A DNA stretch of 64,000 nucleotides. Origin: Microbacterium sp. Yaish 1. GTDB taxonomy: Bacteria > Actinomycetota > Actinomycetes > Actinomycetales > Microbacteriaceae. Positions 41,106 to 53,301 of this stretch are shown one piece after another. Where the stretch lies: positions 971,557-1,035,556 of the forward strand of contig NZ_NPMR01000002.1 of assembly GCF_002245215.1 (NCBI RefSeq), in the 5' to 3' direction. The position numbers and the translations under genes are program-made. The notes under the pieces are model-generated. The model was not told the DNA's origin and searched no databases. It saw only the letters and a program-made list of their open reading frames with translations. Position 1 is the stretch's first letter. Each line of letters starts with the position of its first letter.

Positions 41106-41139
41106 CGAGGGGCGCTGTCAGAGCTGGCGGCGCCCCTCG
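41106..41139. terminator. Bidirectional terminator between ptrB and recR
   Basis: Arms CGAGGGGCGC (41106-41115) and GCGCCCCTCG (41130-41139) lie between the convergent genes. The right arm falls inside the last codons of recR. Confidence 0.7.
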
Positions 41140-41711
41140 AACGCGCGGCCGAGGGTGACCTCGTCGGCGTACTCGAGGTCGCCTCCGACGGGGAGGCCCG
41201 ACGCCAGCCGCGTCACGCGGATCTCGAGAGCCGTCAGGAGGCGACTGAGGTAGGTCGCAGTGGCCTCTCCCTCGAGGTTCGGGTTGGTCGCGAGGATGAC
41301 CTCCTGCACGGTGCCGTCGGCCAGACGCTGCATGAGCTGCGCGATGCGGAGGTCGTCGGGGCCGATGCCGCCGATGGGACTGATCGCGCCGCCGAGCACG
41401 TGGTACAGGCCGCGGAACTCGCGCGTGCGCTCGATCGCGGCGACGTCCTTGGCGTCTTCGACGACGCAGATGAACGTGCCGTCACGCCGCGGGTCGCGGC
41501 AGATCGCGCAGCGCTCGTGCTCGGACACGTTGCCGCAGACCTCGCAGAAGCGCACGCGCTCGCGCAGCTCGCCGAGCAGGTGCGAGAGCTTGGAGACGTC
41601 GAAGGTGGGAGTCTGCAGGATGTGGAACGCGATGCGCTGCGCCGACTTCGGCCCGATGCCGGGCAGGCGGCCGAACTCGTCGATGAGGTCCTGGACGATG
41701 CCGTCGTACAT
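41118..41711 (-). CDS. recR: Recombination mediator RecR
   Basis: This 197-residue protein works with RecO and RecF to load RecA on gapped DNA. Features in order are helix-hairpin-helix ([15 protein letters not shown], about 15-29), the zinc finger [16 protein letters not shown] (about 57-72), a Toprim domain (about 80-175, [10 protein letters not shown]) and the C-terminal Walker-B-like [13 protein letters not shown]. Length and motifs are fully canonical. It begins three bases after dnaX on the same strand, the usual order in many bacteria. Confidence 0.97.
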
Positions 41712-41714
41712 GGC

Positions 41715-44009
41715 TTAGCCGAATCTCGTGGGTGAGGTGAAGGGTTCTTCGCGAACGAAGGTGGCTCCGAGCATCTGGCGGACGACCGCCTCGCCGTAGC
41801 GCTCGATACCGCCCCGGGCGGGTGCCGCGTTCGAGCGGCCGTTCGACGGCGCCGGGGCGGCGACGGCAGCCTCCGGCGATGCCGGTGCGGGGCCTGTCGT
41901 CGCCGGGGCGGTGGTCATTGGCCGTTCGACGGCGACCGGCGCGCGCGGGGGCAGGGGCGCGTAGTCGTCGACGGGAGGCGGCGGGTAGTCGCGGTCCTCC
42001 TCGTCGATGGGCGGCAGGGGCTCGGGGTAGGGGTCGACGTCACCGTCGTGGGGCGCCGTGAGCGTGCGCACGGGGGCGGCGACGGCATCCTCCGGCTCGT
42101 CGTCCACCGCGAACTGCGGCGCCGGGTCGCCCTGCGGGATGGGCGCGACGGCCCACTCGGTGACGGGGCCGGCGGAGGAAGCGGAGCCGGATGGTGACGC
42201 GGATGCGGCCGGACGGGCGCCCGCCGACGCCGAGGGTGCGCCCGCGGTGCGCTGACCGCCGGGAGCCGGCTGCGACGACGGGGCGGGCGCGGACTGCCGG
42301 TGATCCCCCGCGGGATGCTGCCGTGGTGCGCCACCCGACTGCCCGCCCGGCTGCGGGGCCGGAGGCCCCCCGGGTGCGGGGCCGCCGCCGGGGTCGGAGT
42401 CGTGGCGGGCGACGTACTTGACGCGCACGCCGAGGACGCTCAGAATCGCGCCACGCAGATCTTCGCTCGGGCCCTTGCCCGCGTTGAGCTTCTTGAACTG
42501 CAGGACGTCGGACTGGCTCTGGAAGGACAGCGTCAGCACACCCGTCTCGGAGAACGCGACAGGCGTGGCGACGGAGGCGATCATCCACGAGGTGCGGCTG
42601 ATCGACTCGAGACGCTGCAGCACCTCGGGCCACGCATCGCGCATCTGCGCGAGCGTGACGGTCGACGGATCGCGCGGTTCGGCCGGGGCCGGGGCCGGGG
42701 CCGGGGCCGGGGCCGCGGGAGGCTGCGCGGCGGGGGCGGGGGCAGAGGACGGCGCGGACGCGGTGCGCTCGGGCTGCGCGGGGGCCGGAACCTGCGCCGG
42801 GGCGGGCGTGACGATGCGCGGCGGAGCTGCGGGCGCGGCCGCGGGAGACGAGGCGTGCGACGCGGGAGCGGCGGCGACCGGGGCCTGGTCGGCGGCGGGA
42901 ACGCTGTGCTGCGCGGCGGCGAGGACGCGCGCCACCAGCAGCTCCAGCTGAAGCCGCGGCGACGTGGCGCCCGACATCTCGTCGAGGGCGGTGACGACGA
43001 GGTCGGCCGTGCGCGAGAGACGGTCGGTACCGAAGAGCGAGGCCTGCCGCCCCATCCGCTCGAGCTCTTCCGCGGACACGCCGCGCAGCACGGCGGATGC
43101 GCCCTGGCCGGTCGCCGACACGATGATGAGATCGCGGAGGCGCTCGAGCAGGTCGTCGACGAAACGGCGCGGGTCCTGACCGGTCTGGATGACCCGGTCG
43201 ACCGCCGCGAAGGCCGCTGCGGCGTCGACGGCGCCGAACGCCCCGACGACCTCGTCGAGCAGCTCGGCGTGGGTGTAGCCGAGGAGGGCCACGGCGCGCT
43301 CGTACGCGACGGCGCCGTCGTCGGACCCGGCGATCAGCTGGTCGAGCAGCGAGAGCGTGTCTCGCGGCGACCCGCCCCCGGCCCGCACGACGAGCGGCAG
43401 CACGCCGGCCTCGACCTGCACGCCCTCCTGGGTGCACAGCTGCTCGACGTACTCGAGCATCGCGGCGGGCGCCACCAGCCGGAACGGGTAGTGGTGGGTT
43501 CGCGAGCGGATCGTGCCGATGACCTTCTCGGGCTCGGTCGTCGCGAAGATGAACTTCACGTGGGCCGGCGGCTCTTCGACGAGCTTCAGCAGAGCGTTGA
43601 AGCCCTGCGCCGTCACCATGTGCGCCTCGTCGAGGATGAAGATCTTGAAGCGGTCGCGGGCCGGGGCGAAGACGGCGCGCTCGCGCAGGTCGCGGGCGTC
43701 GTCGACACCGTTGTGGGAGGCCGCGTCGATCTCGACGACGTCGAGTGAGCCGCCGCCGCCACGGCTCAGCTCGACGCAGCTGTCGCACGTGCCGCACGGG
43801 GTGTCGGTTGGTCCCTGCGCGCAGTTCAGACAGCGGGCGAGGATGCGGGCCGAGGTGGTCTTGCCGCAGCCGCGGGGACCGGAGAAGAGGTACGCGTGAC
43901 CGACGCGGTCGGAGCGGAGCGCCGTCATCAGGGGTTCGGTCACCTGCGACTGGCCGATCATCTCGCCGAACGCTTCGGGACGGTAGCGGCGGTAGAGGGC
44001 GGTGGTCAC
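41715..44009 (-). CDS. dnaX: DNA polymerase III subunit gamma/tau
   Basis: This 764-residue clamp-loader ATPase has Walker A GPRGCGKTTSA (about 44-54), a zinc site (CLNC and CGTCDSC, about 64-79) and Walker B FILDEAHM (about 123-130). From about residue 370 there is a long Pro/Ala-rich linker with an Ala-Pro alternation at about residues 430-450, then a conserved tau-type domain near 455-545 and a further disordered tail. No A-rich slippery site for a gamma frameshift is apparent. The start is GTG at 44009, six bases after TAGTCT (44016-44021), so the message is probably leaderless. It is followed by recR. Confidence 0.96.
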   Translation of the reverse strand: MTTALYRRYRPEAFGEMIGQSQVTEPLMTALRSDRVGHAYLFSGPRGCGKTTSARILARCLNCAQGPTDTPCGTCDSCVELSRGGGGSLDVVEIDAASHNGVDDARDLRERAVFAPARDRFKIFILDEAHMVTAQGFNALLKLVEEPPAHVKFIFATTEPEKVIGTIRSRTHHYPFRLVAPAAMLEYVEQLCTQEGVQVEAGVLPLVVRAGGGSPRDTLSLLDQLIAGSDDGAVAYERAVALLGYTHAELLDEVVGAFGAVDAAAAFAAVDRVIQTGQDPRRFVDDLLERLRDLIIVSATGQGASAVLRGVSAEELERMGRQASLFGTDRLSRTADLVVTALDEMSGATSPRLQLELLVARVLAAAQHSVPAADQAPVAAAPASHASSPAAAPAAPPRIVTPAPAQVPAPAQPERTASAPSSAPAPAAQPPAAPAPAPAPAPAEPRDPSTVTLAQMRDAWPEVLQRLESISRTSWMIASVATPVAFSETGVLTLSFQSQSDVLQFKKLNAGKGPSEDLRGAILSVLGVRVKYVARHDSDPGGGPAPGGPPAPQPGGQSGGAPRQHPAGDHRQSAPAPSSQPAPGGQRTAGAPSASAGARPAASASPSGSASSAGPVTEWAVAPIPQGDPAPQFAVDDEPEDAVAAPVRTLTAPHDGDVDPYPEPLPPIDEEDRDYPPPPVDDYAPLPPRAPVAVERPMTTAPATTGPAPASPEAAVAAPAPSNGRSNAAPARGGIERYGEAVVRQMLGATFVREEPFTSPTRFG

Positions 44010-44098: not shown

Positions 44099-45238
44099 AT
44101 GGAAGCCGCACGCGTCGACGTCGTCGTCATCGGCGCCGGGCAGGCCGGGCTCTCGGCCGCCTACCATCTGCGCCGCCGCGGGTTCGTTCCCTTCTCCCCC
44201 GGCGACATCCCCTCCGACACGTCGGCGCGGACGTTCGTCGTCCTCGACGCCGAGGACGCTCCCGGCGGCGCCTGGCAGCACCGGTGGGAATCGCTGCGCA
44301 TGGAGACGGTCAACGGCATCCATGAGCTGCCCGGTTTCGCGGTGCCGCCGGCTGATCCGGCTGCTCCGGCCCGTGCCGTGCTTCCCGCCTATTTCGACGA
44401 CTACGAGCGTCGCTTCGACCTCCGGGTGCACCGCCCCGTGGAGGTGCGGCGCGTCGAACGCGAGGACGCCGACCCGCACGGTCGCTTGCGGGTGGTCACC
44501 GGAACCGGGTCGTGGTCGGCGCGCTGGGTGGTCAATGCCACGGGGACGTGGCGCCGCCCGTTCTGGCCGCGCTACCCGGGAGCCGACACCTTCGTGGGGC
44601 GCCAGCTCCACGTGCACGACTACGTCTCGGCCGACGAGTTCTCGGGGCAGCGGGTCGTCATCGTCGGCGCCGGGATCTCGGCCATCCAGCTGCTCGACGA
44701 GATCTCCCGCGTCGCCGACACCTTCTGGGTGACGCGCGACGAGCTGCGGTGGGACGCCGGCGGGTTCGACACCGCCGTGCGCATCGCGGCGATCGCCGGG
44801 GTCGAGGAGCGCGTGCGGCAGGGGCTCCCGCCCGGCAGCGTCATCTCGGTCACCGGCCTGCACTGGAACCGCTGGGCGGAGTCGGCTCAGCAGCGCGGCG
44901 TACTGGTCCGGCATTCGATGTTCGAGCGGATCGAGCCGACCGGCGTGCGCATGCCGGACGGCCGGCTCGAGCCCGCCGACGCGATCCTGTGGGCGACCGG
45001 CTTCCGCGCCGACATCCCGCACCTGGCCCCGCTGGGCCTGCGCACCGCCGCCGGCGGCATCCGGGTCGCGAACGGGCGAGCGATCGACGAGCCGCGGCTC
45101 TTCCTCATCGGCTACGGACCGTCGCAGTCGACGGTCGGCGCCAACCGCGCGGGCCGCGACGCCGTGCGCGCGATCATGTCCGAGCTCGCCGTGCCCACGG
45201 GGTCCGCGCCTGCGACCGTCGCGGCGGCGCTGCCCTGA
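44099..45238 (+). CDS. Flavin-containing monooxygenase-like NAD(P)/FAD oxidoreductase
   Basis: This 379-residue protein has two dinucleotide folds: VVIGAGQAGLSAAYHL near residue 10 for FAD, and VVIVGAGISAIQLLDEI near residue 185 for NAD(P)H. ATGFRADIPHLAPLGL near residue 299 is the conserved ATG-type motif of this superfamily. The substrate is unknown; such enzymes oxidise N, S or carbonyl groups, or act as thioredoxin-reductase-like proteins. The upstream GGGAAC-N18-GTTG promoter suggests a role in thiol or oxidative stress. No ribosome site is seen before the ATG, in line with a leaderless message. It is divergent from dnaX. Confidence 0.87.
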   Translation: MEAARVDVVVIGAGQAGLSAAYHLRRRGFVPFSPGDIPSDTSARTFVVLDAEDAPGGAWQHRWESLRMETVNGIHELPGFAVPPADPAAPARAVLPAYFDDYERRFDLRVHRPVEVRRVEREDADPHGRLRVVTGTGSWSARWVVNATGTWRRPFWPRYPGADTFVGRQLHVHDYVSADEFSGQRVVIVGAGISAIQLLDEISRVADTFWVTRDELRWDAGGFDTAVRIAAIAGVEERVRQGLPPGSVISVTGLHWNRWAESAQQRGVLVRHSMFERIEPTGVRMPDGRLEPADAILWATGFRADIPHLAPLGLRTAAGGIRVANGRAIDEPRLFLIGYGPSQSTVGANRAGRDAVRAIMSELAVPTGSAPATVAAALP

Positions 45239-45268: not shown

Positions 45269-47848
45269 TCAGGAGTCGGTGCCCACCTGCTGGTCGGCGA
45301 AGGTCTGCGCGTAGTCCTCGACGACGGGAACCTCGCCGGTGATGATGGGAACCTCGGTCGTCACCGTCGGGATCGACGTCGTGACCGTCGCGTCGGGGAT
45401 CGAGGCCGACAGCAGCGACCCGTCCTCGCGGCGCGACTGCGCGAGCTGGCGCAGCGACGGCCGGCCCGACAGGAGCGGCCCCTGACCGGCGAGCGGGATG
45501 CGGACGGTCTCGCCGCCCGCGACCCGGAACTCGCGACCGCGCACCGAGAAGTCCACCGCATCGCCCGGCCCCGCGGCGACGGTCATAGCCTCGGCGGTCA
45601 GCGTGATGTCCAGGCGCGTGCCCTGCCAGTGCAGGGTGTACTCCAGCGACGGCCAGTCGCGCGGCAGGCGCGGGTCGAAGCTCAGGGCGCCGTAGTGGTC
45701 GCGCATGCCGCCGAATCCGGAGACGAGAGCGGTCCACACGCCGCCGGCGGAGGCGACGTGCACGCCGTCCGAGGCGTTGCTGTGGAGGTCGCCGAGATCG
45801 ACGTAGATCGACTCGAGGAAGTACTCCAGCGCGAGGTCCTGGTAGCCGACCTCGGCCGCGAGAATCGACTGCACGACACCGGACAGCGTCGAGTCGCCGG
45901 TCGTGAGCGGGTCGTAGTACTCGAAGTCGGCCAGCTTCTCCTCGTCGGTGAAGTGGTTGCCCTGGAGGAACAGCGCCAGCACCACGTCGGCCTGCTTGAG
46001 CACCTGGTAGCGGTAGATCACGAGCGGGTGGAAGTGCAGCAGCAGCGGCCGCTGGCTGTCGGGGGTGTTCTCCAGGTCCCACACCTCGCGGTCGAGGAAC
46101 ACCGCGTCCTGCGGGTGGATGCGCAGCGACTCGCTGAACGGGATGAGCAGCGCCTCGGCCGCCCGCTCCCACCCGTCGGCCTCTGCGGGGTCGAGGTCGA
46201 GACGCTCGATGAGCGCGCGATACGCCTCGGGCGCCTCCTCGGCCATGTCGCGCACCGTCCGCGCGGCGAACCGCAGGTTGAACCGAGCCATCACGTTCGT
46301 GAAGAGGTTGTCGTTGACGACCGTCGTGTATTCGTCGGGTCCGGTGACGCCGTGGATGTGGAACGACTCCGCGGCACCGTCCTCGCCGAAGCGCCAGAAC
46401 CCGAGCGTCGACCACAGCCGTGCCGTCTCGACGGCGATGTCGACGGCCTCGCGGTAGAGGAAATCGACGTCGCCCGTGGCCCGCACGTACTTCGCGAGGG
46501 CGAAGCTGACGTCGGCGTTGATGTGGTACTGCGCGGTGCCGGCGGCGTAGTAGGCGGAGGCCTCTTCGCCGTTGATCGTGCGCCACGGGAACAGGGCGCC
46601 GGCCTCGTTGAGCTGACGCGCCCGGCGGCGCGCGGCGGGGAGCATGAGGTAGCGCATGCGCAGCGCGTTCCGGGCCCACAGCGGAGTCGTGTAGGCCAGG
46701 AAGGGCAGGACGTAGACCTCGGTGTCCCAGAAGTAGTGGCCGCTGTATCCCGACCCGGTGACGCCCTTGGCGGGCACGCCCTGCCCGTCGGCTCGGGCGG
46801 CCGCCTGCGCGAGCTGGAACAGGCACCAGCGGGTCGCCTGCTGCAGGTCCTCGTGGCCGCCGATGCGCACGTCGGAACGACGCCAGAAGTCGGCGCACCA
46901 CGCCGCCTGCCGCTCGAACTGAACCGCGACTCCCTCCTCGCGGACCCGGTCGAGCACCCGGCGACTGCGCTCGACGAGCTCGCGAGCCGGCACGCCGCGC
47001 GACGTGTGGTAGCTCACGAGCTTGGTGACGGTGATGGGGACACCCTGCCGCGCGTTCACCCGGAAGACGTTCTTGGCGATGTCGGGCTCGATGAGGCGAC
47101 GGGAGGAGTACTCGTTCTCGGTCTCGACGAGGTGGTCGGCGACGACCGACACCGTCATCCCGGAGTTGGTGGACTTGTACGACAGGACCGACCGGCCGTC
47201 CTCGTCCTGCCAGTACTCCTGCGGCTGGAGGACCCGCTCCTCGATCTTCTCGGTCTTCCGCGGGTCGAAGCCCGCGGTGGCGCGGCCCGGCGCCGATCCC
47301 CCGTAGACGTCCTCGCCGTCCTGGCGGTTGACGATCTGGCTGCTCACCGAGACCGGGGCGTCGGAGTTCAGCACCGTCACCGTCAGGCGCATGATCGCGA
47401 GGTGCTTCTGCTCGAACGACACGAGGCGCTCGAAGTCGACCTGCACCTCCTTGCCGCTCGGGGTGACCCACAGCAGCTTCCGGGTGAGCACGCCGGTGCG
47501 CATGTCGAGGACCCGCTCGTAGTCGCGGATGTCGGCGACGTCGAGCGAGAGCGGCTCGTCGTCGACGTAGACACGCATGACCTTCGCGTCGGGCGCGTTG
47601 ATGATCGTCTGGCCGACCTCGGCGAAGCCGAAGGCCTGCTCGGCGTGGCGGATCGGGAAGATCTCGTGGAAGCCGTTGATGAAGGTGCCGTGCTCGTGCG
47701 CGTAGCGTCCCTCCGGGTGGTTGCCGCGCAACCCGAGGTAGCCGTTGCCGACCGCGAACAGCGTCTCGGTCACGCCGATGTCCTCGACCGAGAACCTCTT
47801 CTCGACGAGACGCCAGGGGTCGACGGGGAAGCGATCGCGATCGATCAT
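45269..47848 (-). CDS. Glycoside hydrolase family 65 sugar phosphorylase
   Basis: This 859-residue protein has an N-terminal beta-sandwich (about 1-280), a linker, an (alpha/alpha)6 barrel (about 330-720) and a small C-terminal domain. The general acid is Glu506 in HGVTGPDEYTT, and YFWDTEVYVLPF is the phosphate/substrate region. GH65 enzymes split maltose, trehalose, kojibiose or nigerose with phosphate, giving beta-glucose 1-phosphate. The co-transcribed beta-phosphoglucomutase fits this product. The last 70 residues are an Asp/Thr/Val-rich extension that looks flexible. GGAAGG precedes the ATG. It is the last gene of the pta-ackA-pgmB-GH65 operon. Confidence 0.93.
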   Translation of the reverse strand: MIDRDRFPVDPWRLVEKRFSVEDIGVTETLFAVGNGYLGLRGNHPEGRYAHEHGTFINGFHEIFPIRHAEQAFGFAEVGQTIINAPDAKVMRVYVDDEPLSLDVADIRDYERVLDMRTGVLTRKLLWVTPSGKEVQVDFERLVSFEQKHLAIMRLTVTVLNSDAPVSVSSQIVNRQDGEDVYGGSAPGRATAGFDPRKTEKIEERVLQPQEYWQDEDGRSVLSYKSTNSGMTVSVVADHLVETENEYSSRRLIEPDIAKNVFRVNARQGVPITVTKLVSYHTSRGVPARELVERSRRVLDRVREEGVAVQFERQAAWCADFWRRSDVRIGGHEDLQQATRWCLFQLAQAAARADGQGVPAKGVTGSGYSGHYFWDTEVYVLPFLAYTTPLWARNALRMRYLMLPAARRRARQLNEAGALFPWRTINGEEASAYYAAGTAQYHINADVSFALAKYVRATGDVDFLYREAVDIAVETARLWSTLGFWRFGEDGAAESFHIHGVTGPDEYTTVVNDNLFTNVMARFNLRFAARTVRDMAEEAPEAYRALIERLDLDPAEADGWERAAEALLIPFSESLRIHPQDAVFLDREVWDLENTPDSQRPLLLHFHPLVIYRYQVLKQADVVLALFLQGNHFTDEEKLADFEYYDPLTTGDSTLSGVVQSILAAEVGYQDLALEYFLESIYVDLGDLHSNASDGVHVASAGGVWTALVSGFGGMRDHYGALSFDPRLPRDWPSLEYTLHWQGTRLDITLTAEAMTVAAGPGDAVDFSVRGREFRVAGGETVRIPLAGQGPLLSGRPSLRQLAQSRREDGSLLSASIPDATVTTSIPTVTTEVPIITGEVPVVEDYAQTFADQQVGTDS

Positions 47849-47913
47849 GAGGGCCTTCCGGAGGACGGGCCCCGCCGCTGGAGGCGGGCGATGCGGGCGG
47901 GTGTTGACGTTGG

Positions 47914-48672
47914 TCAGACGAAAGCGTCGAGATCGTCGACGACGACGTGGGCTCCGAGCGCGCGGAGCGCGTCGGCGCCGGCGCCGCGATCGACGCCGAC
48001 CACGAGAGCGTAGCCTGCCGCGACCGCCGACTCGACACCCGAGTGGGCGTCCTCGATCGCGACGGAACGGGCCGGGTCGACGCCGAGCATGCGCGCGCCC
48101 TCCGCGAAGACGTCAGGCGCGGGCTTGGAGGGCAGGTGGCGCTCCTCGGCGATCACGCCGTCCATGACGACGGGGAACCTGTCCAGAAGCCCGGCGACCG
48201 CGAGGACCTCGCGCGCGTTCTTCGAGCTGGAGACCACGGCGATCGAAACCCCGGCGGCCTGGAGCTTGTCGACCAGGGCCAGCGATCCGGGGTACGGCGC
48301 GATGCCCTCGGCTCGCAGGACGCGCTCGAACACCGCGTTCTTGCGGTTGCCGATGCCGCAGATGGTGTCGGCCGACGGGTCGTCGCCGGGGTCGCCCCAC
48401 GGCACCTCGACGTCGCGTGAGCGCAGCAGGCTCGCGACGCCGTCGTAGCGCTTCTTGCCGTCGAGATGACGGAAGTAGTCGTCCGCGGTGTACTCCGGCG
48501 TGATCCCCCAGGCCGTGAACAGCTCGGTGAACATGGTCTGCCACGCGTGCATGTGCACGTCGGCGGTCGGGGTGAGCACGCCGTCGAGGTCGAACAGAAC
48601 GCCGTCGTAGGTGGTCAGGTCGGGAAGCTGAGCCGAGGTCACGGAACCAGCGTAATGAGGTCCGGCGGTCAC
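47914..48672 (-). CDS. pgmB: Beta-phosphoglucomutase family HAD hydrolase
   Basis: This protein of up to 252 residues belongs to the haloacid dehalogenase superfamily. The nucleophile motif is FDLDGVLTPTADVH (about residues 26-39), with KPAPDVFAEGARML and IEDAHSGVESAVAAGY further on. It should turn beta-glucose 1-phosphate from the downstream GH65 phosphorylase into glucose 6-phosphate. The GTG at 48672 overlaps the ackA stop (GTGA), which favours coupling; a second GTG at 48642 would give 242 residues and is equally close to family length. It lies 65 bases before the GH65 gene. Confidence 0.9.
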   Translation of the reverse strand: MTAGPHYAGSVTSAQLPDLTTYDGVLFDLDGVLTPTADVHMHAWQTMFTELFTAWGITPEYTADDYFRHLDGKKRYDGVASLLRSRDVEVPWGDPGDDPSADTICGIGNRKNAVFERVLRAEGIAPYPGSLALVDKLQAAGVSIAVVSSSKNAREVLAVAGLLDRFPVVMDGVIAEERHLPSKPAPDVFAEGARMLGVDPARSVAIEDAHSGVESAVAAGYALVVGVDRGAGADALRALGAHVVVDDLDAFV

Positions 48673-49898
48673 GCCGTCACGGCGATGGTCTGCCGCGCGA
48701 TCTCCAGCTCCTCGTTCGTCGGGACGACGAGCACCTCGACCCGGGAGGCATCCGTGGAGATCCGGCGGATGCCGCGCCCGCGCTGCTCGTTTCGGGCCGG
48801 ATCGATCTCGACACCCGCGAACCCGAGCGTCTCGAGGGCCGCGGCGCGCACCAGCGGGGAGTTCTCCCCCACGCCGGCGGTGAAGGAGATGACGTCGACC
48901 CCGCCGAGCTCTGCGAGGTACGCACCGGCGTAGGCGCGCAGCCGGTGGGCGTACACCTCGAACGCCAGCGTGGCCGCCTCGTCGCCGCGCTCGACCCCGT
49001 CCTCGATGTCGCGCATGTCGGAGACCCCCGCCAGGCCCAGCATGCCGCTCCGCTTGTTCAGGAGATCGTCGAGCTGCGGGATGGTCATCTCGGCGCGGCG
49101 GGCGAGGTGGAAGATGACGGCGGGGTCGATGTCGCCCGACCGCGTGCCCATGACCAGGCCCTCCAGCGGCGTCATCCCCATCGACGTGTCGACCGAACGA
49201 CCGCTGTCGATCGCCGTGACGGATGCGCCGTTGCCGAGGTGGAAGACGATCTGGCGCAGCTCGGCGAGCGGACGGCCGAGGTGAGCCGCGGCCGCCTCCG
49301 AGACGAACTTGTGCGAGGTGCCGTGGAAGCCGTAGCGGCGGACGCGGTGCGCCTCGGCGAGCGCCGTGTCGATCGCGTAGGTGTAGGCGGCGGGCGGCAT
49401 CGTCTGGTGGAAGGCGGTGTCGAAGACCGCGACGTGCGGCAGGTCGGCGAAGGCGGCCTTGGCCGCGCGGATGCCTTGCAGTGCGCCGGGGTTGTGGAGG
49501 GGCGCGAGCACCGACAGCTCGTCGATGTTGATCTCGACGAGGGGCGTGATGAGCGTGGGTTCGAAGAACCGCGCGCCGCCGTGGACGACGCGGTGGCCGA
49601 CGGCGACGGGCGCGTGCTGCTCGAGCGACGGGCCGTTCTCGGCGAACGCGTCGAGCATGAGCTGGAAGCCGGCGGTGTGGTCGGCGATCGGGAGCTCGCG
49701 CTCGTAGGTGGCGTCGGTGGCGGTGACGGCGGCCTCCCCGGCAGCGGCCGGCGGGAAGAACACGGTGTGTTTGACCCGGCCCTGCTCCTGCCCGATGCGC
49801 TCGACGAGGCCCGACGCGTGAGGGAGCCCGGTCTCGGCGTCGATCAGCTGGTACTTGAACGACGACGAGCCGCTGTTGATGACGAGCACGATGCTCAT
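48669..49898 (-). CDS. ackA: Acetate kinase
   Basis: This 409-residue ATP:acetate phosphotransferase belongs to the ASKHA fold. Seen are LVINSGSSSFKYQLI at the N-terminus, the FHGTSHK stretch and GLVMGTRSGDIDPA. It interconverts acetyl phosphate and acetate with ATP. The ATG overlaps the pta stop (ATGA) and its own stop overlaps the pgmB start, so the four genes form one tightly coupled operon. Length is normal and no key residue is missing. Confidence 0.97.
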   Translation of the reverse strand: MSIVLVINSGSSSFKYQLIDAETGLPHASGLVERIGQEQGRVKHTVFFPPAAAGEAAVTATDATYERELPIADHTAGFQLMLDAFAENGPSLEQHAPVAVGHRVVHGGARFFEPTLITPLVEINIDELSVLAPLHNPGALQGIRAAKAAFADLPHVAVFDTAFHQTMPPAAYTYAIDTALAEAHRVRRYGFHGTSHKFVSEAAAAHLGRPLAELRQIVFHLGNGASVTAIDSGRSVDTSMGMTPLEGLVMGTRSGDIDPAVIFHLARRAEMTIPQLDDLLNKRSGMLGLAGVSDMRDIEDGVERGDEAATLAFEVYAHRLRAYAGAYLAELGGVDVISFTAGVGENSPLVRAAALETLGFAGVEIDPARNEQRGRGIRRISTDASRVEVLVVPTNEELEIARQTIAVTA

Positions 49899-52012
49899 GC
49901 GGATGCCCCTCCCTGGGCCTGGATCGCGGTGATGGCGATCGTGTTGACGATGTCTTCGACGAGGGCTCCGCGGGAGAGGTCGTTGATCGGCTTGTTGAGG
50001 CCCTGCAGGACGGGGCCGATGGCGACGGCGCCGGCCGAGCGCTGGACGGCCTTGTACGTGTTGTTCCCGGTGTTCAGGTCGGGGAAGACGAACACCGTCG
50101 CCTTGCCCGCGACGGACGATCCGGGCATCTTCTTCGCCGCGACGGCCGCGTCGGTCGCCGCGTCGTACTGGATGGGGCCCTCGACCAGTAGCTCGGGGGC
50201 GCGCTCGCGCACGAGCGCGGTGGCCGCCCGCACCTTGTCGACGTCGGCGCCGGACCCCGACTCCCCCGTCGAGTACGACAGCATCGCCACGCGCGGGTCG
50301 ATGCCGAACTGGCGCGCCGTCTCGGCCGACGACACGGCGATGTCGGCGAGCTGCTCGCTCGTGGGGTCGGGGATGACGGCGCAGTCGCCGTAGACGAGGA
50401 CGCGGTCGGCGAGCGCCATGAGGAAGACGCTCGAGACGACCGAGACGCCCGGCTTGGTCTTGATGATCTCGAAGGCCGGACGGATCGTGTGCGCCGTCGT
50501 GTGGGCGGCACCCGAGACCATGCCGTCGGCGAGACCGAGGTGCACCATGAGCGTGCCGAAGTACGACACGTCGGTGACGGTGTCGGCCGCCTGGCCGTAC
50601 GTCATGCCCTTGTGGGCGCGCAGACGCTCGTACTCGCGGGCGAACTTGTCGACGTGGACGGCGTCGAAGGGCGAGAGGATCTCGGCTCCGCGCAGGTCGA
50701 GACCGAGCTCCAGCGCGCGCGAGCGCACCTCGATCTCCTCGCCCAGCAGCGTGATGTCGGCGATGCCGCGCGCGAGCACGATCGAGGCGGCGTGCAGCAC
50801 GCGGTCATCGTCGGCTTCGGGCAGGACGATGCGGCGGCGGTCGGTGCGGGCCCGCTCGACCAGGCCGTATGCGAACATCAGCGGGGTCACGACGGTGGAC
50901 CGCGCGAGCCCGAGCGCCTCGGTGAGCTCGTTGGTGTCGATGTGCCGCTCGAAGAGCGCCGCGGCGGCCTCGTAGTGCCGCCGCGAATCGGCCGCGAGGC
51001 GCCCCCGCGTGCCCATGATGCGGGCCGCGGTCTCGTAGGTGTCGAGATCGGTGGCGATGATCGGCAGCGTCTCGCCGACGCCGTCGATCAGCCGGTCGAC
51101 CGCCTCGGGCAGCGGGAACCCGCCGTTGATGACGATCGCCGAGAGCGAGGGGAAGGTGCCCGACGCGTGTGCGAGCAGCGTGGCCAGGAGCACCTCGGCC
51201 CGGTCGGACGGGATGACCACGACCGAGCGCTCGCTGAGCCGCGGGAGCACGTTGACCATCGACATCGCACCGATGACGACCCCGAGCACCTCGCGCCCCA
51301 GCAGGTCGGCGTCGCCCTTGACGAGCGACCCCTCGACGGCGGCGAGGACGGTGCTCACCGACGGCGACACGAGGAAGCGGTCCTCCGGCACGGCCCAGAC
51401 CGGGACGTTCTGCGGCACCGCACCGCGCACGGCCTCGATGATCTCGTCGAGACGATCGCCGTCCGCGCGGTTGGCCACGACGGCGAACAGCTCGGCTCGG
51501 TCGTCGCGCAGCTCCGACACCGCCAGCGATGCGATCTGTCCCATCTCGTCGGGGGTGCGTGCCGGGGCGGACCCGAGCTTCTCGCCGCCGCCCTGCCCCG
51601 CTCGTCCGCCGAGCACCAGCAGCACCGGTGCCCCGAGGTTCACCGCGATGCGGCCGTTGTAGCTCAGCTCCGCGGGGGAACCGACATCCGTGTAGTCGCT
51701 GCCCATGATGACGACGGCGTCGCACTTGGCCTCGACCGACTTGTAACGCTCCACGATGCGAGAGAGCGCCCCGTCGGGGTCGCGCCGCATGTCGTCGTAG
51801 GTGACGCCGATGCACTCGTCGTACGCGAGGTCGACGCCGTCGTGGTCGAGCAGCATCTCGAGGACGTAGTCGCGTTCCTCCGTCGACCGGGCGATCGGCC
51901 GGAACACTCCGACGCGGGGCGCGACACGGCTGAACGCCTCGAGCACCCCCAGCGCGATGATCGACTTCGCGGAATGGCCTTCTGCGGACGTGATGTAGAT
52001 GCTCTGAGCCAC
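49895..52012 (-). CDS. pta: Phosphate acetyltransferase (long form)
   Basis: This 705-residue long-type Pta has an N-terminal P-loop-like region related to dethiobiotin synthetase (about 1-200), a DRTGG domain (about 210-320) and the catalytic acetyltransferase domain (about 375-700) with GLVERARTDRRRIVLPEADDDR split over its start and GMVSGAAHTTAHTIRPA. It makes acetyl phosphate from acetyl-CoA for AckA. The start is GTG at 52012. There is no ribosome site, but TAGGCT (52019-52024) lies six bases upstream, pointing to a leaderless operon promoter. The SRP RNA gene is just upstream on the same strand. Confidence 0.96.
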   Translation of the reverse strand: MAQSIYITSAEGHSAKSIIALGVLEAFSRVAPRVGVFRPIARSTEERDYVLEMLLDHDGVDLAYDECIGVTYDDMRRDPDGALSRIVERYKSVEAKCDAVVIMGSDYTDVGSPAELSYNGRIAVNLGAPVLLVLGGRAGQGGGEKLGSAPARTPDEMGQIASLAVSELRDDRAELFAVVANRADGDRLDEIIEAVRGAVPQNVPVWAVPEDRFLVSPSVSTVLAAVEGSLVKGDADLLGREVLGVVIGAMSMVNVLPRLSERSVVVIPSDRAEVLLATLLAHASGTFPSLSAIVINGGFPLPEAVDRLIDGVGETLPIIATDLDTYETAARIMGTRGRLAADSRRHYEAAAALFERHIDTNELTEALGLARSTVVTPLMFAYGLVERARTDRRRIVLPEADDDRVLHAASIVLARGIADITLLGEEIEVRSRALELGLDLRGAEILSPFDAVHVDKFAREYERLRAHKGMTYGQAADTVTDVSYFGTLMVHLGLADGMVSGAAHTTAHTIRPAFEIIKTKPGVSVVSSVFLMALADRVLVYGDCAVIPDPTSEQLADIAVSSAETARQFGIDPRVAMLSYSTGESGSGADVDKVRAATALVRERAPELLVEGPIQYDAATDAAVAAKKMPGSSVAGKATVFVFPDLNTGNNTYKAVQRSAGAVAIGPVLQGLNKPINDLSRGALVEDIVNTIAITAIQAQGGASA

Positions 52013-52107
52013 GGGTTCAGCCTAAGAGGGAGAGGCCTGACCACGAGCCGTGAATATCGCCACGGTCGTGGCGGCGGATGCCGCAGGCCACGACGGTGGG
52101 GAAAAAG

Positions 52108-52199
52108 TAAGACTCTCCGCGAACCCGGCAGAGCCCGGTTACCCTTGCTACGTTTCCGTCCTGGGGGAGTTGGCCTGGATGCCGCCTCGCGGAGAGCTG
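52108..52199 (-). ncRNA. ffs: Signal recognition particle RNA (small bacterial type)
   Basis: On the minus strand the RNA folds into one long hairpin. Terminal arms CTCTCCGCGA (from 52196) and TCGCGGAGAG (to 52113) close it. The tip has CCAGG-ACG-GAAA-CGT-AGCAAGG, the domain IV symmetric loop and GNRA tetraloop bound by Ffh. A T-rich run follows at 52107-52103. A -10-like TAGACT at 52210-52205 places the transcript start near 52199. Exact ends are estimated. The rest of the 296-base gap between pta and moxR holds only the two promoters. Confidence 0.9.
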
Positions 52200-52308
52200 A
52201 CACCAGTCTAACCCGGAACCTGAGTCCTCCCGTCACCGGGGCCGGTTAGGCTCTCGCCAGACGGGCGCGACGCGGCGGGACACGCGGCGCGGAGAACGAG
52301 GGGATCGC

Positions 52309-53301
52309 ATGACCAACGACGGCAGCCAGGCAGCTTTGGGTCCCGACCGGTTCGCCGCCACCACCGATGCGATCTCGGCGAGCATCGCCCGCGTCATCGA
52401 CGGCAAGCCCGAGGCGGTGCGCTCCGCGCTCGTCTGCCTCCTCGCCGAGGGGCACCTTCTCATCGAGGACGTGCCGGGCGTCGGCAAGACGATGCTCGCG
52501 CGTGCGCTCGCCGCGACCGTGGATGCCACGGTGCGCCGCATCCAGTTCACCCCCGACCTGCTGCCCGGCGACGTCACGGGCGTGAGCGTCTTCAATCAGG
52601 CCGACCGCGAGTTCGAGTTCAAGCAGGGGGCGATCTTCGCCCACATCGTCATCGCCGACGAGATCAACCGCTCCTCCCCCAAAACGCAGTCCGCGCTGCT
52701 CGAGGCGATGGAGGAACGCCAGGTGACCGTCGACGGGCGCACCCACGCGCTGCCCGCCCCGTTCCTCGTGGTCGCGACGCAGAACCCCCTCGAGATGGAG
52801 GGCACCTACGCCCTACCGGAGGCGCAGCGCGACCGCTTCATGATGCGCATCTCGATGGGCTATCCCGACGCCGCGTCCGAAGCCCGGATGCTGCGTCAGC
52901 GCGACACCGTCAACCCGCTGTCGTCGCTCGCCCCGGTCATCACGGCGAACGAGGTGCAGGACCTCATCGCCTGGGCGCGCAGCCTGCATGTCTCGCCCTC
53001 GGTCGAGGAGTACGCGGTCGCGATCGCCCGCGCCACCCGCGACCACCGCGATCTGCGCCTGGGGGCGAGCCCCCGCGCCACCCTGCAGCTCGTCCGCGCC
53101 GCGAAGGTGTGGGCAGCGCTCGACGGCCGCCCCTTCGTCATCCCGGACGACATCGTCGCGCTGCTGCAGCCGGTCTTCGCCCACCGCCTCATCCCGGCGC
53201 GGACGACCGGCGCCTCCCGCGGCCGCAGCGGCGCGGAAGTGGTCGAGGCGGCGTTGGCCGACATCGCCGCGACGGTCCCGGTGCCGCTCCCGGTCCGCTG
53301 A
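52309..53301 (+). CDS. MoxR-family AAA+ ATPase
   Basis: This 330-residue cytoplasmic ATPase has Walker A DVPGVGKT (residues 54-61), Walker B HIVIADEINRSSPKTQ (about 112-127) and the sensor stretch VVATQNPLEMEGTYALPEAQ. MoxR proteins act as chaperones that insert cofactors or remodel partner proteins. Here it is the first gene of a common actinobacterial triad with a DUF58 protein and a transglutaminase-like membrane protein. GAGGGG before the ATG is the ribosome site. The client is unknown. Confidence 0.93.
   Translation: MTNDGSQAALGPDRFAATTDAISASIARVIDGKPEAVRSALVCLLAEGHLLIEDVPGVGKTMLARALAATVDATVRRIQFTPDLLPGDVTGVSVFNQADREFEFKQGAIFAHIVIADEINRSSPKTQSALLEAMEERQVTVDGRTHALPAPFLVVATQNPLEMEGTYALPEAQRDRFMMRISMGYPDAASEARMLRQRDTVNPLSSLAPVITANEVQDLIAWARSLHVSPSVEEYAVAIARATRDHRDLRLGASPRATLQLVRAAKVWAALDGRPFVIPDDIVALLQPVFAHRLIPARTTGASRGRSGAEVVEAALADIAATVPVPLPVR

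Follow-up and report, generated by a model that had tools for sequence, protein, structure and literature searches.

The pta-ackA and pgmB-GH65 genes of Microbacterium probably form two adjacent bicistronic transcription units

Genes of the locus and their products

The window (the whole 64,000-nucleotide stretch analysed here) carries on its minus strand, in this order, a small SRP RNA, pta, ackA, pgmB and a GH65 gene; for the four protein-coding genes, set and order agree with those given by an earlier sequence-only reading. The SRP RNA (52105-52201) scores 54.2 bits against Rfam RF00169, where the gathering score is 40. Next to it lies pta (49895-52012), which encodes a long-form phosphate acetyltransferase with PTA_PTB, DRTGG and AAA_26 domains above the Pfam cut-offs and with profile scores above the cut-offs of NF004167 and TIGR00651. 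The acetate kinase gene ackA (48669-49898; TIGR00016 above cut-off, Pfam Acetate_kinase) overlaps pta by 4 nt, as had been described, and the 65-nt gap ahead of GH65 was also given correctly. On the side of GH65, the same strand carries dnaX (41715-44009; Pfam DNA_pol3_delta2 and DNA_pol3_gamma3) and recR (41118-41711; Pfam RecR domains and Toprim), while a MoxR-type ATPase gene that starts at 52309 diverges from pta. A flavin monooxygenase-like gene (44099-45238) is convergent with GH65; its product scores 303.7 bits to ArsO, below the cut-off of 425, and 15 of 23 named loci have a relative on the downstream side of GH65.

The GH65 gene (45269-47848) begins with an ATG preceded by a Shine-Dalgarno-like GGAAGG and encodes an 859-residue protein of the inverting alpha-glucoside phosphorylase type, with the N-terminal, catalytic and C-terminal domains (Glyco_hydro_65N, 65m and 65C) all above their Pfam cut-offs. 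It is 97-98% identical to the proteins of Microbacterium sp. AG238, M. arborescens DSM 20754 and Microbacterium sp. SMR1, and aligns with kojibiose and maltose phosphorylases. Its Glu506 aligns with Glu487 of maltose phosphorylase 1h54, which we take to be the catalytic acid, and Lys618, Gln619, Ser653, Thr654 and His697 correspond to what are presumably the phosphate-site residues of that enzyme (KQ, SS or ST, and His671). Across 88 loci, among which are the window's own and what are probably duplicates, the aligned Glu506, Lys618, Gln619 and Ser653 are always present, position 654 holds Thr in 81 loci and Ser in the other 7, and His697 is found in all 87 loci that cover it. The NCBIfam scores fall below their curated cut-offs and, since PRK13807 reaches 448.5 against a cut-off of 838, the specificity of the enzyme cannot be named. 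Neighbours of pgmB-GH65 at 10 loci from other genera were compared, using a simple ORF caller, for a wider conserved neighbourhood that could name the substrate; no cluster recurred in more than 2 of the 10.

Two further observations concern the distribution of GH65 genes. At least 18 of the 129 Microbacterium genomes sampled carry a second GH65 gene of 38-42% identity, and proteins 80-93% identical to that of the window occur on three contigs (L033, L037 and L061) labelled as a Mycobacterium MAG, Stenotrophomonas maltophilia and a Verrucomicrobiaceae MAG, which are probably contamination or mislabelled bins.

The pgmB product is a beta-phosphoglucomutase-type HAD protein, with the PF00702 domain above cut-off and the motifs DLDG, SSSK and KPAPD. 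It scores 151.2 bits against the subfamily model TIGR02009, just under the cut-off of 153.35, and 106.9 bits against the beta-phosphoglucomutase equivalog TIGR01990, short of the required 189.4. Its best PDB relative is 8h5s (E 1.6e-53), named as a beta-phosphoglucomutase and, we presume, Rv3400.

The ackA-pgmB junction

The pgmB reading frame can be drawn up to position 48672, and it is this GTG at 48672 that the proposed stop-to-start overlap of ackA and pgmB needs. That start is lost among close relatives. Of six compared, one (L052) still allows the same reading, two (L031 and L055) have a junction one nucleotide shorter that places a stop in the frame, and three (L032, L034 and L035) have a longer junction unlike that of the window. 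All six retain TACGCT-N6-GTG, 30 nt downstream. We have thus corrected the start, as judged from this conservation, to the likely GTG at 48640-48642, so that pgmB would span 47914-48642 and begin 26 nt past the ackA stop. The resulting 26-nt gap contains a -10 box, TACGCT (48649-48654, minus strand), which begins 14 nt past the ackA stop, has its first T 12 nt before the GTG and leaves 6 nt between box and start, the arrangement of a predicted leaderless promoter. A second such candidate, TAGGCT (52019-52024, minus strand), lies 6 nt before the GTG of pta and is the predicted promoter of pta-ackA. Zheng et al. 2011 (PMC3160421) report TANNNT before leaderless bacterial genes at about the window's 12-nt distance, and Cortes et al. 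2013 (PMC3898074) found that TANNNT precedes 73% of the primary transcription starts of M. tuberculosis.

Conservation of these signals was assessed in 114 genomes, the window's own included, in which ackA and GH65 are separated by less than 1.2 kb, with the junction taken from the ackA stop to the codon before Gly24 of the long-form PgmB. Of these 114 junctions, 91 contain TACGCT where shuffles predict 2.55, and 106 contain TA[CG][GC]CT where they predict 6.25; these expectations overstate significance because the genomes are related and the trials not independent. The sequence that flanks the box varies among genomes while the box itself is preserved. Among the remaining eight junctions, four have another TANNNT (L148, L209, L211 and L212) and four (L150, L174, L180 and L213) lack all the -10 box types looked for. 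By a loose classification script, 39 of the 114 junctions are leaderless, 67 combine a box with a Shine-Dalgarno-like site, 4 are of other types and 4 are box-less. Of the 39 that the script called leaderless, 7 come from a sub-clade that carries another start further downstream, led by a Shine-Dalgarno site. In a separate count, an ATG or GTG in frame with pgmB stands 5-8 nt after a TANNNT in 39 of the 114 genomes, where 1.5 were expected.

The same leaderless pattern precedes pta in 111 of the 112 genomes whose sequence reaches far enough upstream (1.35 expected), and in all 112 when the stretch is made slightly wider. Before ackA and before GH65 it occurs in 0 of 114 genomes each, which, with 0.2 expected, serves as a contrast rather than as evidence of depletion. 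The box is likewise found in 0 of 114 pta-ackA and 0 of 114 pgmB-GH65 junctions, a weak control given how short these junctions are: pta ends in the overlap form ATGA or GTGA in 107 of the 114 genomes, and the median gap between pgmB and GH65 is 3.5 nt, with 57 genomes having no gap or an overlap. The two genes of either pair are tightly coupled in this respect, in keeping with two bicistronic units.

These observations bear directly on the proposal that all four genes form one overlapping operon, through which the phosphorolysis of sugars would be adjusted jointly with acetate overflow or uptake. The genes share one strand and are separated by short gaps, and no intrinsic-terminator-like site was found in the window's ackA-pgmB junction. 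In addition, in the four box-less genomes, whose junctions measure 42-73 nt into pgmB, co-transcription by read-through is more likely than in the others. However, the single-operon proposal assumed a junction free of internal promoters, and a conserved promoter-like -10 box is found precisely there, while the overlap of ackA and pgmB is not itself conserved. Together with the insertions and losses described below, this weakens the proposal to the point where we consider it quite improbable.

The lack of a terminator-like site means that transcription could read through from the first gene pair into the second. A variant compatible with two units, in which partial read-through from pta-ackA would give loose co-expression of pgmB-GH65, comes close to an even chance in our estimation; the position of the box so near to the ackA stop is in keeping with it, but genomes in which the two pairs are interrupted or separated show that read-through is not required.

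The conserved TACGCT might also be an operator, an RNA element or some other feature instead of a promoter. In a Microbacterium sub-clade (e.g. L187, L194 and L207) an inverted repeat, GGCAC-N6-GTGCC, stands right behind the box, and may represent an operator or a short reading frame upstream of the gene. Against this, the 6-7 nt between box and start in the leaderless cases fits the published -10 pattern, matching boxes stand at pta, and folding of 61 distinct pgmB leaders gave a mean MFE of -12.0 versus -12.08 for shuffles, with 28 of the 61 below their own shuffle mean. A non-promoter role for the box is, on balance, very improbable indeed. The same folding, in which the consensus structure has no pairs, led us to reject a conserved RNA hairpin as a general property of pgmB leaders.

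Conservation and separability of the two gene pairs

A match to GH65 is present in all 129 genus genomes (in two pieces in G318, partial in G290 and with internal stops in a few), making the enzyme a candidate worth a substrate assay. For ackA, a match was obtained in 125 of the 129. In 121 it lies upstream of GH65 on the same strand with 0.75-6.2 kb between them, the basis on which the order could be held to favour a single operon, and in 114 the spacing is under 1.2 kb. The exceptions are instructive. Four genomes (G222, G235, G294 and G300) have GH65 and no ackA match; in G202 ackA is 0.8 Mb from GH65; in G252 and G296 it is on another contig within other surroundings; and in G234 the two genes are on two contigs. 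Leaving G234 aside, ackA has been lost or relocated in seven genomes, which counts against a single four-gene operon. In G300, G202, G252 and G296 the SRP RNA and MoxR remain near pgmB-GH65 in the order of the window and pta-ackA is absent from the site.

At four loci where pta-ackA is missing (L073, L074, L076 and L080) the SRP RNA lies upstream of pgmB-GH65. The pta-ackA genes of G202 and G252 (L075 and L081), at 69-75% identity, are within a few kb of tRNA clusters, and have perhaps been moved or re-acquired.

In six genomes the distance from ackA to GH65 is 2.9-6.2 kb, corresponding to about 2-5 kb of extra sequence between ackA and pgmB, a further point against one operon. The insert at L063 holds genes for PTS EIIA and EIIBC, a glucosamine-6-phosphate isomerase-type gene and a GntR/UTRA regulator; as this is a PTS operon, an entire operon can be accommodated between ackA and pgmB. 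Judged by ORF size only, L064, L066 and L067 have similar inserts, of about 5 kb each, while that of L069 consists of an HNH/DUF222 gene and a histidine phosphatase-type gene. All six insert loci (L063-L067 and L069) keep TACGCT before pgmB. The pgmB-GH65 pair therefore survives loss, relocation or interruption of pta-ackA.

Retention of the order within the genus does not itself set the ackA-pgmB linkage apart. In 21 of the 23 named loci that reach 20 kb or more, ackA lies upstream of GH65; MoxR is upstream in 20, and dnaX and recR are downstream of GH65 in 19 each. Since the unrelated neighbours MoxR, dnaX and recR are retained about as often as ackA, the linkage is not exceptional, and mild selection would fit the 121 of 129 genomes that keep the pairs together as well.

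Conservation of the order in sister species, which the sequence-only reading took as essential, holds inside the genus and fails outside it. In the family sample, GH65 was matched in 89 of 199 genomes; omitting the window's own genome and seven with a distant paralogue only left 81, of which 8 are without a listed ackA position, and 70 others lie outside the genus. Among the ackA positions listed, none of these 70 has ackA within 20 kb of GH65: in 30 the two genes share a contig, the closest pair being separated by 53 kb, and in the others they are on different contigs. In the order sample, GH65 was matched in 117 of 198 genomes, and 83 were compared after omission of 34 already counted or without a listed ackA position. 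Here ackA is within 20 kb of GH65 in 0 of the 81 genomes outside the genus, 30 of which have both genes on one contig, the nearest at 64 kb. The four-gene arrangement was thus not seen outside Microbacterium, again at odds with a single operon.

In loci L002-L030, pgmB adjoins GH65 in 29 of 29, and in the 26 of these from other genera no ackA was found in the 1.5-kb flank of the pair. In other genera recR is on the downstream side of ackA in 7 of 10 loci, dnaX adjoins the pta-ackA neighbourhood in several, and the SRP RNA occurs in 7 of 9 scanned ackA loci (L102 lay outside the scan); in 4 it precedes pta and shares its strand, and in 3 it is elsewhere or in another orientation. The pta-ackA/recR neighbourhood is common, though not uniform, across other genera. 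This suggests pta-ackA-dnaX-recR as the older order, into which pgmB-GH65 would have been inserted between ackA and dnaX. Because pta-ackA is often near recR elsewhere and pgmB-GH65 is not with it, the insertion probably took place in the Microbacterium ancestor, the direction of rearrangement being deduced from this comparison.

Two units and their relation to known systems

Taken together, these observations make it probable that the locus consists of two adjacent bicistronic transcription units, pta-ackA and pgmB-GH65, with promoter use predicted from sequence. The first unit would start at the leaderless promoter that precedes the GTG of pta by 6 nt, and its enzymes would interconvert acetyl-CoA and acetate. 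The second would be transcribed from a promoter of its own within the ackA-pgmB junction; in the window species this would be leaderless, and in many others it would be placed further upstream and accompanied by a Shine-Dalgarno-like site. Its GH65 enzyme is expected to split an alpha-linked disaccharide with inorganic phosphate, releasing beta-glucose 1-phosphate, which PgmB would convert to glucose 6-phosphate. Once the Microbacterium ancestor had gained pgmB-GH65 between ackA and dnaX-recR, ordinary synteny may have held the pair in place. More generally, in high-GC Actinobacteria a gap of 26 nt is room enough to conceal a leaderless promoter, and short distances and an apparent start-stop overlap are no proof of an operon there.

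The proposed coupling of sugar breakdown and acetate metabolism through a shared phosphate pool found no support beyond the adjacency of the genes. A link through phosphoketolase-fed acetyl phosphate, which would tie sugar breakdown to AckA, was also considered and rejected, as the window's own genome has no XFP_N match (0 of 1; 4 of 14 control genomes match). It is conceivable, if rather unlikely, that after its insertion behind ackA the pgmB-GH65 pair came under dual control by its own promoter and by read-through from the acetate operon. If so, Microbacterium, unlike its relatives, would step up disaccharide phosphorolysis as acetate overflow increases.

Each element of the locus has a known counterpart. 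GH65 phosphorylase genes are paired with pgmB in lactic acid bacteria (maltose phosphorylase-pgmB) and in mycobacteria (Rv3401-Rv3400), and Microbacterium has the same adjacent enzyme pair, but here the pair sits behind pta-ackA. As in the pta-ackA operon, a long-form Pta and AckA are encoded by genes with overlapping ends; unlike in that operon, pgmB-GH65 stands between pta-ackA and dnaX-recR. A literature search over titles and abstract openings returned no description of the pta-ackA-pgmB-GH65 arrangement. Finally, the putative promoters identified here from sequence resemble the leaderless TANNNT promoters of Actinobacteria (PMC3160421, PMC3898074): the first T lies the same 12 nt before the start, and no difference is evident.
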